NCBI RefSeq assembly: GCF_006539685.1
Contig: NZ_BJNM01000011.1
Span: forward strand, 1-64,000
Source: Gluconobacter oxydans
GTDB taxonomy: Bacteria > Pseudomonadota > Alphaproteobacteria > Acetobacterales > Acetobacteraceae
Direction of reading: 5' to 3'
DNA: 64,000 bases
This document shows positions 57,124-62,169 of the stretch, piece by piece; position 1 is the stretch's first letter, and every line of letters begins with the position of its first letter. A program made the position numbers and the translations under genes. Below the pieces are notes generated by a model, which worked only from the letters and a program-made list of their open reading frames with translations, did not search any database and was not told the origin of the DNA.

Positions 57124-57867
57124 TCAGACGGCCGCGATGGCTGCGGGAACGCTGTTTCTGGACGGTGCGTCTGTCGTGACGGGGATTTCCGCGGTGTCGT
57201 CTTCCCGCAGGATGTAGCCGCGTCCCCAGACGGTCGCGATCAGGTTGCCCGCGCCGACATTCTGGAGTTTGCGACGCAGCTTGCAGATGAAGACGTCGAT
57301 GATCTTCATTTCCGGCTCGTCAATGCCGCCATAAAGGTGGTTGAGAAACGCGTCCTTGGTCAGGACGGATCCCTTGCGGATCACCAGCAGTTCCAGAATG
57401 GCATATTCCTTGCCCGTCAGGTGCAGCGGAGCGCCGTCGACCGTGACGTTCTTGCCATTCAGATCCAGTTCCAGATTGCCGACACGCAGTTTCGGCTCGG
57501 CAAAGCCACGGGAGCGCCGCATGACGGCCTGCAGACGGGCGACCAGTTCGCCTGCGTCGTAAGGCTTGGTCATGTAGTCGTCAGCCCCCATGGAGAAGGC
57601 CCGGATTTTCGCCTGGGGGCGCAGCAGGGCGGACAGGACAAGGATGGGCGTCGTGATACGCGCGGCCCGGGCGCGGCGGATGACTTCGTAGCCTTCAAGG
57701 TCGTTCAGCATAAGTTCAAGCACCACCACATCGTAGTCGTAGTGGCGAAGCATCTCGATGGCTTCTTCGCCAGACGGCGTGTGGTCCACGGTGAAAGACG
57801 CGGTCCGCAGGATCTGGGACAGTGTGGTGGCGGCTGACTGATCGCTGTCGACAAGAAGGATACGCAT
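57124..57867 (-). CDS. ctrA: CtrA-like cell-cycle response regulator lacking the phosphoacceptor Asp
   Basis: A 247-residue OmpR-class regulator that aligns with Caulobacter CtrA without gaps across the first 56 residues. The DNA-binding domain keeps the CtrA signature HLTGKEYAILELL, FLNHLYGGIDEPEMKIIDVFICKLRRKL. In the receiver, Asp51 is Glu (YDYDVVVLELMLND; codon GAA at 57715-57717) and the acidic pair after the first strand reads D7-S8-D9 in place of E-D-D. The GADDYMTKP lysine and SAL serine switch residue remain. D51E in Caulobacter CtrA is the standard phosphomimetic. The C-terminus ends in AAV, not the Ala-Ala that supports ClpXP degradation in Caulobacter. ATG 57867 gives the canonical N-terminus; the frame is open to 58056. 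Confidence 0.93.
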   Translation of the reverse strand: MRILLVDSDQSAATTLSQILRTASFTVDHTPSGEEAIEMLRHYDYDVVVLELMLNDLEGYEVIRRARAARITTPILVLSALLRPQAKIRAFSMGADDYMTKPYDAGELVARLQAVMRRSRGFAEPKLRVGNLELDLNGKNVTVDGAPLHLTGKEYAILELLVIRKGSVLTKDAFLNHLYGGIDEPEMKIIDVFICKLRRKLQNVGAGNLIATVWGRGYILREDDTAEIPVTTDAPSRNSVPAAIAAV

Positions 57868-57980
57868 GTTCTCAACTCCCGGCTTGGTGAAGCAATGGTT
57901 ACTACCCAAGGTTGTGTGTGTCGATAGACATGGATCAAAAATCGTAAAATTGTCATTATTTTTCCCGTCAGAGGGGAACG

Positions 57981-57995
57981 TTAGGGTTCTCTTAA
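57981..57995. promoter_or_regulatory. Candidate CtrA box between ctrA and fliI
   Basis: TTAG-GGTTCTC-TTAA matches the TTAA-N7-TTAA CtrA consensus at seven of eight half-site bases with the exact 7-base spacer. It lies in the 190-base divergent gap, 63 bases before the fliI ATG and 114 bases before the ctrA ATG, so it could serve autoregulation, flagellar control, or both. Confidence 0.6.
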
Positions 57996-58057: not shown

Positions 58058-59416
58058 ATGGACGACTACGACAGACTGCTCGAAAGGCTTTCGAACCTCA
58101 CCTGCGACTGGGTTGTAGGAAGCGTTAAAGACGTTATCGGTCTCTGTCTGACCGTTATCGGACTCGAAGGTTTCATTACGATTGGAGACCGAGTCGCGGT
58201 GAAAGCGCGTGACGGACGGGTTGTGCAATCCGAGGTTGTGGGCTTTCAGGGTGATGTCGCGCGGCTCATGTCCTTCGGGCCTCTGGACGGAATTGGTCCG
58301 GGCTGCGAGGCTAGGATTCCGCTGAACCGTCATGATGGTGGCCTTGGCGTTAATGAAAGCTGGCTGGGGCGCGTGCTGGATCCGCTGGGACAGCCGATCG
58401 ACGGGAAGGGGCCTCTGTTTCCGTCGTTTGAGCGGCAGCCGGTCCAGTGTCCTCCGCCCAATGCTGCAAGCCGGGCGCGGCTTGGCGAGCGTATCGACCT
58501 CGGGGTCCGCGCCCTTGATACCTTCACGACCTGCCGGCGCGGACAGAGGCTCGGGCTTTTCGCAGGGTCGGGTGTCGGGAAATCCACATTGCTGTCCATG
58601 CTCGCCCGCGGCGCGGACTGTGATGTCGCCGTGATCTCGCTTGTGGGTGAGCGTGGGCGCGAGGTGCGGGAGTTCATCGAGGATGATCTCGGGCCGGAAG
58701 GGCTGGCGCGGAGTGTGCTGGTGATTGCGACTTCTGATTCACCGCCACTGATGCGTCGCGAAGCCGCCCTGTCCGCCATGGCCATCGCGGAATATTTCCG
58801 GAACCAGGGCAAATCGGTCCTGCTGCTGATGGACAGCGTGACGCGGTTCTGCATGGCGCTGCGTGAAATCGGTCTGTCAGCCGGAGAGCCGCCTGCGACG
58901 CGGGGTTATCCGCCTTCGGTTTTTGCCGAACTGCCGCGTCTTCTGGAGCGGGCGGGGCCTGGCTATGCCGATCAGGGCATGATCACGGCGCTCTTCACGG
59001 TTCTTGTGGAGGGGGATGACCAGAATGAGCCGGTTGCGGATGCCGTGCGTGGCATTCTGGACGGGCATATCATTCTTGACCGCAAGATCGGCGAGCAGGG
59101 GCGGTATCCTGCCATTGATGTTCTGCGTTCCCTGTCGCGTGCGGTGCCGGGATGTAATTCGCCTGAGGAAAATGCTCTGACGCAACGCGCGCGGGCAGCG
59201 ATGGCGACCTATCAGCGGATGGCAGATATGATCCGGCTGGGAGCCTACAAACCCGGAACGGATCGTGAGGTGGATGAAGCCATCGCCCTCATGCCGAAGC
59301 TAAACGAGTTCCTGTCTCAGGGGCGGAACGAACGCACCACGCGCGCCGAGGCCTTTGAACAGCTGGCGCAGATCATGCAGATGCCGCTGAAAAACCTCCC
59401 CCCGAATGAATCGTAA
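58058..59416 (+). CDS. fliI: Flagellar export ATPase FliI
   Basis: The 452-residue ATPase of the flagellar type III export apparatus, related to F1 beta. Walker A is GLFAGSGVGKSTLLSMLARG near residue 170; VISLVGERGREVREF, VLLLMDSVTRFCMALREIGL and ATRGYPPSVFAELPRLLERAG follow. The flagellar type, not the virulence type, is inferred from the fliJ partner downstream and the ctrA neighbour, an arrangement known from other alphaproteobacteria. FliH and the structural genes are not in the window. Confidence 0.95.
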   Translation: MDDYDRLLERLSNLTCDWVVGSVKDVIGLCLTVIGLEGFITIGDRVAVKARDGRVVQSEVVGFQGDVARLMSFGPLDGIGPGCEARIPLNRHDGGLGVNESWLGRVLDPLGQPIDGKGPLFPSFERQPVQCPPPNAASRARLGERIDLGVRALDTFTTCRRGQRLGLFAGSGVGKSTLLSMLARGADCDVAVISLVGERGREVREFIEDDLGPEGLARSVLVIATSDSPPLMRREAALSAMAIAEYFRNQGKSVLLLMDSVTRFCMALREIGLSAGEPPATRGYPPSVFAELPRLLERAGPGYADQGMITALFTVLVEGDDQNEPVADAVRGILDGHIILDRKIGEQGRYPAIDVLRSLSRAVPGCNSPEENALTQRARAAMATYQRMADMIRLGAYKPGTDREVDEAIALMPKLNEFLSQGRNERTTRAEAFEQLAQIMQMPLKNLPPNES

Positions 59417-59427
59417 AGGACCTCACA

Positions 59428-59853
59428 ATGGAACCCTCACCTCTCGAGACACTGATTACCCTGCGGGAGCAGGAGCTCGATCTTGTGGAACGCAGCTTTG
59501 CAGAGGCCGTGGCGCGGGAAACGGCTGCGGAAGAAAAACTGACTGCGGCGCAGGCGGAGATCCTGAACGAACAGCGGATCGCATCCAGCCCTACGGCGGA
59601 TGACGGTGCCGTGGAGGCATTCAGCCGGTGGCTTCCCGGAGGGCGGCAGGCGGTTCTCGAAGCACGGCAGCGCTGTCGGGAAGCGGCGATGGATCGCGAG
59701 GCGGTGCGTTCAGCCCTGATCGCTGCCCGGGCAGCGATGGAGGCCGTCAGGACCTTGCGGGAAGAGCAGAAGGAAGAAGAGCGGCAGGCTGACCTTAGAA
59801 AGGAACAGAATGCTCTGGATGAACTCGCTGTCCGTCAGTTCGGCAGGTCGTGA
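59428..59853 (+). CDS. fliJ: FliJ-like flagellar export chaperone
   Basis: A 141-residue, almost wholly alpha-helical, highly charged coiled coil (LITLREQELDLVERSFAEAV, AAMEAVRTLREEQKEEERQ), the FliJ pattern. It begins 11 bases after the fliI stop, as expected for the ATPase's central stalk partner. Sequence identity in FliJ is always low, so the call rests on composition and position. It overlaps the convergent next gene by 19 bases. Confidence 0.8.
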   Translation: MEPSPLETLITLREQELDLVERSFAEAVARETAAEEKLTAAQAEILNEQRIASSPTADDGAVEAFSRWLPGGRQAVLEARQRCREAAMDREAVRSALIAARAAMEAVRTLREEQKEEERQADLRKEQNALDELAVRQFGRS

Positions 59854-60266
59854 GAGGGTGCATGCTCACGTAAGGCGGTCTCGATCTGGGCCGCGGTGCC
59901 AATCAGGGCGCAGGCGACCGGATGGGTGCTGTCGCGGACGAAGGCCAGGACGAGGTCGGGATCGCTGGAGAAAAGGTCGCTTTGCAGCGTGATGACCGGT
60001 GTCATTTCGCCGTTGCGGGATGCCCCTTCAGCCGCGTGTGAGAGAAGGCGGGCAACAGCTTTTTCCAGTGCGGGAAGAAGTACCGTGTGAGGGGCGTCAT
60101 GATGTGCGGCATGGGTCGCGATCAGTTCATCCCAGCCGGCACGGGTTACGAAAGCGGGGATGCCGTCAGGGGGCGTGTCGCGCTCGGCGCGCAGGAGGGC
60201 GCCGGATTGGGCCATGCCAAGGATATCCAGGGCAGGAAGAATCGCGGGGTCGAGTTTGATGGACAT
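59835..60266 (-). CDS. Hypothetical protein
   Basis: A 143-residue, soluble, Ala/His-rich protein without a signal sequence. It starts MSIKLDPAILPALDILG, with HAAHHDAPHTVLLPALEKAV mid-protein and DPDLVLAFVRDSTHPVACALIG near 110. I recognise no family. The composition and codon use look coding, and its ATG is plausible, but it converges on fliJ with a 19-base overlap, so both annotations deserve a check. Confidence 0.55.
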   Translation of the reverse strand: MSIKLDPAILPALDILGMAQSGALLRAERDTPPDGIPAFVTRAGWDELIATHAAHHDAPHTVLLPALEKAVARLLSHAAEGASRNGEMTPVITLQSDLFSSDPDLVLAFVRDSTHPVACALIGTAAQIETALREHAPSHDLPN

Positions 60267-60334: not shown

Positions 60335-60889
60335 TCAGTGCGGCGGGTTGCCCATGGCCTGCATCAGGGCCGTAACCTGCTCGGGCTGGGCCTTGAAGAG
60401 GGCGACATTGGACGGGTTGGGGCTGGGCATTCCCGTCGGGAGCTGTCCGTTGCTGGCGGCCAGAGTCATGCCGAATGTGGTCATGCCCATCACAAAGCTC
60501 TCGGGTGTGAAACCGTGGCTTTGCAGGACGGGCGCCAGCCCCGGCACCTGACTGATCTGCCGGATCGTCTCTGAGAGGCTCGTGCCATGAGAGTTGGGGG
60601 GCTGGATATTCCGGGCCTGGAGTTCGGCGATCGTTGCGGCGGCCCGGGTCATGAAGTCAGGCGGCAGCGGGTAGTGCATGGCCCGTTCCGTATCGGCACG
60701 GACCTGCGGCGACACCTGCTGGGTCTGCTGCGGTGCACCCTGAAGGGGGGCGCTGCCGTCGATCTGGGTCTGGCTCGAGACGCCGCCTTGATAGGCGGAT
60801 GGCGGGTAGGTCTGCGCCTGTGCGGCCAGTGGCAGCATTGCAGCGGAAACGAGAAGGGCCGAGAGCCCTGTCATGCGGGGAAATGTCAT
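60335..60889 (-). CDS. Hypothetical secreted protein
   Basis: A 184-residue protein: signal sequence (LSALLVSAAMLPLAAQAQ), a Gln/Pro/Ser-rich stretch, and a helical C-terminal half (RAAATIAELQARN, GLAPVLQSHGFTPESFVMGM). ATG 60889 overlaps the stop of the upstream aminopeptidase gene (ATGA), so they are co-translated; the frame extends four codons upstream. No known domain. Confidence 0.65.
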   Translation of the reverse strand: MTFPRMTGLSALLVSAAMLPLAAQAQTYPPSAYQGGVSSQTQIDGSAPLQGAPQQTQQVSPQVRADTERAMHYPLPPDFMTRAAATIAELQARNIQPPNSHGTSLSETIRQISQVPGLAPVLQSHGFTPESFVMGMTTFGMTLAASNGQLPTGMPSPNPSNVALFKAQPEQVTALMQAMGNPPH

Positions 60890-62169
60890 GCCTGCACCCA
60901 TTCGCCAGCGCGCATCAGCGGCACGCGGTTGCCATTCTTGAGACCATCGAGGTCGATCTTGTCCGAACCAATCATCCAGTCAATGTGGATGAGGGAGTCG
61001 TTGACGCCGCGCTCCAGCAGTTCTTCCGGCGTCAGGCCTTCGATATCGACCATGCACTTCGTATAGGCCTGACCAAGAGCAATGTGGCTGGACGCATTTT
61101 CGTCGAACAGCGTGTTGCGATACAGGATCTTGCTGGCCGAGATGGGCGAGGAGTGCGGCACGAGGGCCACTTCACCGATCCGGGCTGCGCCTTCATCGGT
61201 GCTGAGGATGCGCTTGAGTACGTCTTCGCCATGGCTTGCGGACGCTTCGACAATCTTTCCGTTTTCAAAGCGGACCGATATGTTGTCGATCAGCGTGCCC
61301 TGATGGAAAAGCGGCTTGGTGCTGCTGACCCGGCCATCGACCTTGCTGCGATGGGGCGTCGTGAAGATTTCTTCTGTCGGGATATTCGGGTTGCAGACAA
61401 TGCCGTTGCCCGATTTTTCCGAGCCGCCTGCCCAGAGATGCCCGTCCGCAAGGCCGACCGTCAGATCGGTGCCGGGGCCGCTGAAATGCAGGGCCTCGAA
61501 GCGGCTGTCATTCATGTATTTCGCCCGGGCGTGCAGGCGGGCGTTATGGGCTTTCCACTCGGCGACCGGGTCGGCCACGTCGACGCGGGAGGCCTTGAAG
61601 ATCCCATCCCACAGGGCGGCGAGCGCCTCGTCGGCCGGAAGCTCCGGGAAGACCTGTGCAGCCCAGGCCGGGGTGGCGCAGGCGATGATGTTCCAGTTCA
61701 CGGCGAACTGCGTGATGATTTCCATCGCCGGGCGGTTGGCCTTGGAATTGGCGCGGTTGGCCCGGGAAATGCGCTCGGGGTCCTGACCCTTCAGAAGGGT
61801 CGGGTTGGCGCCCGTGATAGCCATGCGGGCTGCGCCTTCACGGAAAGCGCGGGCCATGCCGTCAGCGAGCCAGGTGGGGGCGACGTCGAAGGCCTCGTCC
61901 GGGGCGTGGATGAAGCGGGCCAGCGTGGTCTCGTCATCCGCATACAGCGTCGTCACCAGGGAGGCGCCAGCCTTGTAGGCGTGTTCCGTCACGCGGCGGA
62001 CCAGTGGGACGGCGGCCAGAGGCGCTGTGATGAGAAGCTGCTGGCCCGGCGCGATGTTCAGGCCAACGCGGACGGCAACCTCGCCCAGGCGATCAAGCAG
62101 CTGTTCGTGCGAAAAGGTGGAAGGAGCGGACACGTTGGACTCTTTCGCAGTGATCATTCTGTCCGTCAT
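60886..62169 (-). CDS. M29 family aminopeptidase
   Basis: A 427-residue metallopeptidase of the AmpS/aminopeptidase T family. The family pattern NIPTEEIFTTPHRSKVDGRV near residue 250 carries metal-binding Glu and His residues, and NDSLIHIDWMIGSD near 400 carries further ligands, including His and Asp. It trims N-terminal residues in the cytoplasm using two divalent metals. ATG 62169 or an ATG four codons later are both possible. Confidence 0.88.
   Translation of the reverse strand: MTDRMITAKESNVSAPSTFSHEQLLDRLGEVAVRVGLNIAPGQQLLITAPLAAVPLVRRVTEHAYKAGASLVTTLYADDETTLARFIHAPDEAFDVAPTWLADGMARAFREGAARMAITGANPTLLKGQDPERISRANRANSKANRPAMEIITQFAVNWNIIACATPAWAAQVFPELPADEALAALWDGIFKASRVDVADPVAEWKAHNARLHARAKYMNDSRFEALHFSGPGTDLTVGLADGHLWAGGSEKSGNGIVCNPNIPTEEIFTTPHRSKVDGRVSSTKPLFHQGTLIDNISVRFENGKIVEASASHGEDVLKRILSTDEGAARIGEVALVPHSSPISASKILYRNTLFDENASSHIALGQAYTKCMVDIEGLTPEELLERGVNDSLIHIDWMIGSDKIDLDGLKNGNRVPLMRAGEWVQA

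Follow-up and report, generated by a model that had tools for sequence, protein, structure and literature searches.

In the stretch of Gluconobacter oxydans DNA analysed here (the window, 64,000 nucleotides), the minus-strand frame at 57124–57867 encodes a 247-residue orthologue of CtrA, assigned from its open reading frame, NCBIfam and Pfam matches and synteny. CtrA is a textbook case of a phosphorylation-controlled cell-cycle regulator. The window protein combines an OmpR-type receiver (Response_reg, residues 3–112) with a winged-helix DNA-binding domain (Trans_reg_C, residues 146–220), and its best match among family models is the CtrA model NF045991 (RespRegCtrARhodob), at 326 bits, below the model cut-off of 350. 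A structure prediction for it has a mean pLDDT of 90.3 and a pTM of 0.63.

Asp51 and one of the Mg2+-binding acids expected of a phosphorelay CtrA are missing from this protein. Codon 51 (57715–57717, minus strand) is GAA, placing Glu where the phospho-acceptor Asp would be, as read from the translation and from an alignment of 248 ctrA genes. Codon 8 (57844–57846, minus strand) is likewise altered: the translation reads AGC, for Ser. The available text of PMC12632262 names five catalytic receiver positions, DD1, DD2 (an acid in direct contact with Mg2+), D, T and K, which were placed at CtrA residues 7, 8, 51, 79 and 101; Ser8 thus replaces DD2, and the other pocket residues, read from the translation, are Asp7, Asp9, Ser79 and Lys101. 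The same text defines a pseudo-receiver as one in which at least one of the five is missing, and as aspartate-less if D is missing; since both D and DD2 are absent here, the domain is an aspartate-less pseudo-receiver by that definition. An earlier reading made from the sequence alone had reported Glu51 and Ser8 within an altered acidic pocket and a C-terminus ending in Val. Both substitutions and the terminal Val are confirmed, and Ser8 does alter the pocket, but the catalytic acid pair is residues 7–8 (DD1 and DD2), not 8–9, so that what remains is a pocket without DD2 and the phospho-acceptor, with the acid at 7 retained.

Divergent from ctrA is fliI, for the flagellar export ATPase (58058–59416, plus strand; named from Pfam ATPase domains and position), followed by fliJ (59428–59853, plus strand; PF02050). 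Two minus-strand frames beyond these (59835–60266 and 60335–60901) are conserved neighbours of ctrA and fliIJ with no Pfam match; the former is still next to ctrA in Asaia and Bombella-type loci that have lost fliI from this position. An Rfam scan around the ctrA locus returned nothing. Between ctrA and fliI, a motif search found a candidate CtrA-box-like site, TTAAGAGAACCCTAAC (57980–57995, minus strand), of the form TTAA-N7-CTAAC, one mismatch away from the CtrA box consensus TTAA-N7-TTAAC. Adjoining the ctrA start is GTAACCAT (57895–57902, minus strand), which resembles the CtrA half-site TTAACCAT. Across ten aligned Gluconobacter promoters (the window and nine other loci), the first TTAA of the box-like site is invariant and its spacer variable, and the GTAACCA of the half-site-like element is invariant, and the final base of that element is conserved in nine of ten.

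Counts of such sites do not exceed chance when taken alone. The whole window has two box-like matches against 0.65 expected by chance, which is not significant alone; exact boxes in the G. oxydans genome number six, as many as for a reversed-pattern control, and the flagellar and chemotaxis contig C19 has no excess either, so no CtrA regulon is claimed. At one mismatch or fewer, the box was found in none of the ctrA promoters of the seven D51 relatives examined, nor in those of the E51 loci of Tanticharoenia, Acetobacter musti and Acidomonas. One exact box lies ahead of fliO (named by eye), and control of flagellar genes is likely a CtrA duty that has been retained. An exact overlapping pair of boxes (L385:1502; G000:C25:7409–7425) precedes the gene for a GGDEF-like protein, which diverges from a dapD-like gene (names by eye).

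Glu51 and Ser8 are found together in all ten Gluconobacter loci fetched by name (L009–L018; nine isolates and one MAG), as well as in Neokomagataea, Acidomonas and three Asaia loci. Glu51 also occurs in loci from Tanticharoenia, Brytella and Acetobacter musti, and Bombella/Parasaccharibacter-type loci include four with Ala51 and three with Glu51; Asp51 with an intact acid pair is present in seven other loci (L027–L033, with Acetobacteraceae or Rhodospirillales MAG titles and one Acidobacteria title). The divergent ctrA-fliI pair is seen in 15/15 E51 loci (L009–L023) and in five of the seven D51 loci (L028, L030–L033), the other two being short contigs; that the pair is common to Asp51 and Glu51 loci supports orthology. 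In the Asaia and Bombella-type loci ctrA is present and fliI is gone from that place. Three further records are of separate interest: a CtrA-like protein that has Ser51 but lacks Lys101 in the alphaproteobacterial MAG BRZ_DV bin2 (L045:6001–6690), possibly a pseudo-receiver CtrA from outside the family; a Bombella dulcis record (L048:6001–6668) in which the ctrA frame ends after 115 residues, with an apparent frame change midway; and two genomes of 1.9–2.1 Mb (G029 and G116, genus g30) with no CtrA-like match at E ≤ 1e-30, a possible loss of ctrA.

Two trivial explanations are that the role of CtrA is filled by a second, canonical copy, or that the Glu codon is an error. The agreement of the ten Gluconobacter loci disposes of a sequencing error or strain-specific mutation. 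A second CtrA with Asp51, specified beforehand as the counter-evidence to look for, was not found in the G. oxydans genome, an assembly of 107 contigs with an estimated completeness of 100: other full-length matches are at most 38% identical, and among five of these that were scanned two had OmpR models as their best match, one PhoB, and two no model at the limit used. Each of seven same-genus genomes, its own included, has exactly one CtrA match at E ≤ 1e-50. Either explanation can be given next to no weight.

ChpT, RcdA and SciP were sought with their Pfam families PF10090, PF07323 and PF06627; the Caulobacter positive control was matched for each. PF10090 matched in 185 of 299 family genomes and in none of the seven same-genus genomes, that of the window included. 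A family ChpT profile, built from seven family ChpTs, was run on two controls and on 78 of the 92 genomes with a read ctrA and no ChpT or only a weak match. It scored 221–223 bits in the two positive controls; its best match in G. oxydans, 17.8 bits, lies inside a 681-residue kinase frame. Among the 78 genomes it recovered a clear ChpT in G164 and G270 and a weaker or partial one in G284 and G244, all four being Asp51 genomes. The remaining matches reached at most 46 bits, mostly within long kinase-like frames; those in two short frames (G039, 21 bits in 219 residues; G108, 19.7 bits in 226 residues) could be partial ChpTs, in genomes that were counted as ChpT-less. Genomes with a PF10090 match only at E > 1e-4 were classed as ChpT-less (G001, G009, G192, G224 and G232) or as unknown. 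In five ChpT-positive genomes (G291, G003, G205, G166 and G160), chpT lies on the same contig as ctrA, about 6 kb away.

For CckA, the model NF046026, tried over the 299 genomes, was uninformative because its kinase core cross-matches other hybrid kinases, and it was superseded by a family alignment. The resulting profile (eight rows, taken from genomes that were not themselves tested) scored 517–740 bits in 11 of 17 ChpT-positive genomes and did not exceed 370 in the other six, which are without a CckA above background, so that it is not fully sensitive; G164 gave 523 bits and G087 478. Its best score in G. oxydans was 302 bits, and 0/56 broken-pocket genomes had a match above 370. The ChpT and family-type CckA of a working phosphorelay were thus both missing from the G. 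oxydans genome in these searches, which support the uncoupling of its CtrA from the CckA-ChpT relay.

Other signalling proteins are present. Two single-domain receivers on contig C19 are beside and within a cheA-cheW-cheR-cheB-type cluster (gene names by eye), a setting that gives them a CheY-like look rather than that of DivK or CpdR. Two hybrid kinases (L162 and L165) are retained in G. oxydans, and could be invoked for phosphorylation of CtrA at a different residue, by another kinase or by acetyl phosphate. The length and N-terminal part of both kinases are unlike those of family CckA, the Asp at D and the acid at DD2 are both gone from the receiver, and no ChpT-type phosphotransferase was found in this genome; all of this makes such a rerouting highly improbable.

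In the Acetobacteraceae as a whole, pocket state goes with the presence or absence of the relay. From the 299 sampled family genomes, 248 ctrA genes could be read. With an intact pocket defined as D51/D8/K101, 232 genomes divide into 135 with ChpT and an intact pocket, 88 with no ChpT and a broken one, and nine discordant: two with ChpT and a broken pocket (G133, with E51, and G103, with N8) and seven intact with no ChpT. Five of these seven (G041, G039, G227, G163 and G087) are 73–90% complete and two (G030 and G013) are 99% complete; the latter two retain E7-D8, D51 and K101, with K9 in G030 (EDK at 7–9), and fall inside the main ChpT-less clade described below. Sixteen rows of the 248 were set aside from this table, eight as truncated, partial or paralogous (G281, G086, G032, G247, G062 and the second copy in G133, together with the paralogues of 40–41% identity in G004 and G297) and eight with only weak ChpT matches; G004 and G297 are ChpT-positive with broken receivers, and counting them in would raise the ChpT-positive, broken class to four. 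In the 98 rows first classed as ChpT-less, residue 51 was Glu in 50, Asp in 26, Arg in 9, Ala in 3, His in 3, Gly, Asn and Ser in one each and unread in 4; D8 or K101 was missing from 15 of the 26 Asp51 rows. G133 (L240, L349) combines ChpT, a main CtrA with E51 in an otherwise intact pocket and a second, divergent copy: possibly an early stage, possibly an assembly error.

The number of evolutionary events behind these counts was estimated on a tree of 177 CtrAs, with columns 7–9, 50–52, 79–80 and 100–102 omitted. It comprised the 107 rows that were not both ChpT-positive and intact (the five truncated rows and the second G133 copy excluded) and 70 drawn at random from the 135 that were. The main ChpT-less group forms a single clade of 67 tips (SH-aLRT 96) that contains acetic acid bacteria, with genomes probably of Gluconobacter, Neokomagataea, Tanticharoenia, Brytella, Acidomonas, Asaia and Bombella; further broken lineages outside it include an Arg51 lineage and g54. 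The loss of ChpT and the decay of the pocket amount to few phylogenetic events, with minima of 10 changes for ChpT, 12 for the intact state and 18 for residue 51. An independent-pairs test of ChpT against pocket state found only two pairs on supported branches, so that no significance is possible and the association draws mainly on the 67-tip clade and a few other lineages.

One possibility for the role of residue 51 is that Glu is a true phosphomimetic, which alone locks CtrA in a phosphorylated-like state and which permitted CckA and ChpT to be lost without losing CtrA activity. In Caulobacter, the D51E allele is treated as active or phosphomimetic in the accessible parts of PMC5189948 (with a stabilised end) and PMC12186491. 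Within the family, E51 with an otherwise intact pocket is found in G009 and G295, early branches of the E51 group, and in Acetobacter musti, and in G133 it coexists with ChpT; in the 67-tip clade, residue 51 is acidic in 61 tips, as against 11 for residue 8. However, a branch sister to the rest of the clade (G071, G251, G132, G181, G056 and G219) retained D51 and lost D8 instead, and D51 persists in broken pockets in G046, G126, G060 and G184. Ala, His and Asn also occur at 51 within the clade, and the separate, ChpT-less Arg51 lineage still has a DNA-binding half 56–60% identical to the D51 consensus; a mimic is thus not needed for ctrA to be retained. The sequence-only reading had proposed that CtrA may have left the phosphorelay or may be permanently active. 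The former is supported, as ChpT and family-type CckA were not found, whereas the second is not established: a phosphomimetic Glu51 in a permanently active CtrA is plausible, and the stronger proposal, that Glu51 alone suffices and opened the way to relay loss, is a tentative one to which we give somewhat less than an even chance.

Another possibility is that relaxed constraint is simply eroding the receiver: CtrA, having lost its kinase, would be a basal DNA-binding protein with no part left for residue 51 to play. The at least 18 changes at residue 51 on the whole tree and the Ala51 of some Bombella-type loci would fit this, as would two loop sites near the pocket, 55 and 80, for which the clade shows 19 and 28 changes. 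Fitch changes per site in the 67-tip clade are 11.68 for the receiver and 6.18 for the DNA-binding domain (ratio 1.89), compared with 8.48 and 7.30 (ratio 1.16) in the 70 intact tips; the strong conservation of the DNA-binding half (residues 126–221; 57205–57492, minus strand) remarked on earlier thus holds up, with fewer changes per site than in the receiver.

Within the receiver, the comparison was based on 23 sites invariant in the intact set. In the clade, the numbers of changes at the catalytic sites 7, 8, 51, 79 and 101 are 8, 17, 9, 2 and 8. For sites 94, 95, 96, 102, 107, 111, 114, 117 and 118, which the secondary structure of the predicted model places within or between alpha4, beta5 and alpha5, they are 0, 4, 0, 0, 1, 0, 1, 0 and 0 (p = 0.002 against the catalytic sites by an exact Mann-Whitney test, with site classes picked after the data were seen). 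Of the nine sites left, P55 and G59, which follow the phospho-site in the loop and at the start of the helix, have 19 and 5 changes, and each of the others 0–2. The alpha4-beta5-alpha5 surface (residues 84–119; 57511–57618, minus strand) is the dimer interface in OmpR-family regulators, according to the accessible text of PMC12632262. Since the catalytic sites changed and the alpha4-beta5-alpha5 sites hardly did, the chemistry appears to have decayed and the dimer face to have stayed; judged by these per-site changes, constraint remains on the DNA-binding half and on that face. Together with the acid kept at 51 in 61/67, the near-invariance of the dimer face makes simple relaxed decay unlikely. 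It is compatible with a constitutive dimer, although not proof of one.

The reading we prefer, at a probability of roughly three in four, is that the window protein is a genuine CtrA orthologue turned phosphorylation-independent atypical response regulator, out of the CckA-ChpT relay and probably a constitutive dimer. Its phosphate chemistry would have been lost through Asp51 to Glu and Asp8 to Ser, with the family-type ChpT and CckA gone. The receiver would then serve as a fixed dimerisation module, so that CtrA would be on its sites whenever present, and an acid at 51 may help to hold the active conformation in most lineages. We infer both the dimerisation and the activity of the G. oxydans protein from its sequence and those of its relatives. 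Extended to the acetic acid bacteria as a whole, the proposal is that, once CckA and ChpT had been lost, the cell-cycle master regulator became a one-component, constitutively dimeric transcription factor, Glu51 probably having provided the bridge, in a clade without a CtrA phosphorylation cycle, with similar receiver decay arising separately in the Arg51 and g54 lineages; this wider version we regard as about evenly balanced.

If CtrA is no longer switched by phosphate, control may have moved to the amount of CtrA produced or the speed of its removal. An Ala-Ala C-terminus is a proteolysis signal in Caulobacter. That end has been lost clade-wide: it is found in 9 of 67 clade proteins, compared with 83 of 131 ChpT-positive proteins with an intact pocket. 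The adaptor RcdA (PF07323) was matched in 0 of 80 genomes (50 ChpT-less or weak-match and 30 with a PF10090 match), and SciP (PF06627) in 0 of the same 80 above cut-off, with one weak match in G037; as neither was matched above cut-off in either group, they are uninformative about the change. Upstream of ctrA, GANTC occurs within 230 bases in one of ten Gluconobacter loci and not in the window. A shift of control to the rate of CtrA synthesis or removal is what we would infer.

In the bacteria that make vinegar, CtrA appears to have lost its phosphate site and the enzymes that feed it while keeping its DNA-binding half, so that an on/off switch has seemingly become a built-in regulator. A clade that keeps CtrA, apparently without relay and phospho-site, is a natural experiment: which CtrA functions need phosphate? 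The acetic acid bacteria concerned are easily grown and industrially used. Surviving intermediates range from an intact pocket with the relay, through Glu51 in an otherwise intact pocket, to full decay, which makes the path from switch to fixed regulator testable stepwise.

Missing relay members in the Rhodospirillales, to varying degrees, have already been reported, as far as the accessible text of two studies goes: Brilli et al. (2010; PMC2877005) described a cluster D with a degenerate relay, in which cckA was detected but chpT was not, and in a 2021 survey (PMC8116508) no more than 27–36% of genomes had chpT, cckA and divL. Unlike the former, the family CckA profile used here met only background kinases in the 56 broken-pocket genomes searched. 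The words aspartate, receiver and phosphorylation site are absent from the available text of Brilli et al., as is CtrA from that of the pseudo-receiver review PMC12632262, a 2025 paper whose abstract calls the activation and inactivation mechanisms of pseudo-receivers a mystery. Pseudo-receivers are thus a known kind; a clade-wide CtrA version was in no paper among the open-access matches listed.

The G. oxydans protein resembles CtrA of Caulobacter and other alphaproteobacteria in being an orthologous, full-length protein with a conserved DNA-binding half, and it has the ctrA-fliI neighbourhood in common with D51 Acetobacteraceae; it differs from the CckA-ChpT-CtrA phosphorelay in lacking Asp51 and Asp8, with family-type ChpT and CckA not found. 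It carries the same substitution as the hand-made CtrA(D51E) allele, which with CtrA(D51A) is treated for Caulobacter and Rhodobacter capsulatus in the accessible parts of PMC5189948, PMC12186491 and PMC6363796; unphosphorylated R. capsulatus CtrA is said there to have an activity of its own (gafA). Unlike those alleles, this one is natural and clade-wide, and is accompanied by the disappearance of both DD2 and the relay. The protein also resembles the atypical OmpR/PhoB regulators ChxR, GlnR and HP1043, which in the available portions of PMC12632262 and PMC3960148 are orphan regulators whose receivers are without catalytic residues, with an alpha4-beta5-alpha5-type dimer face and with Glu as a common substitute for D. 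In contrast to these, the ancestral phosphorelay form of CtrA survives in sister lineages, so that conversion and relay loss can be traced step by step.
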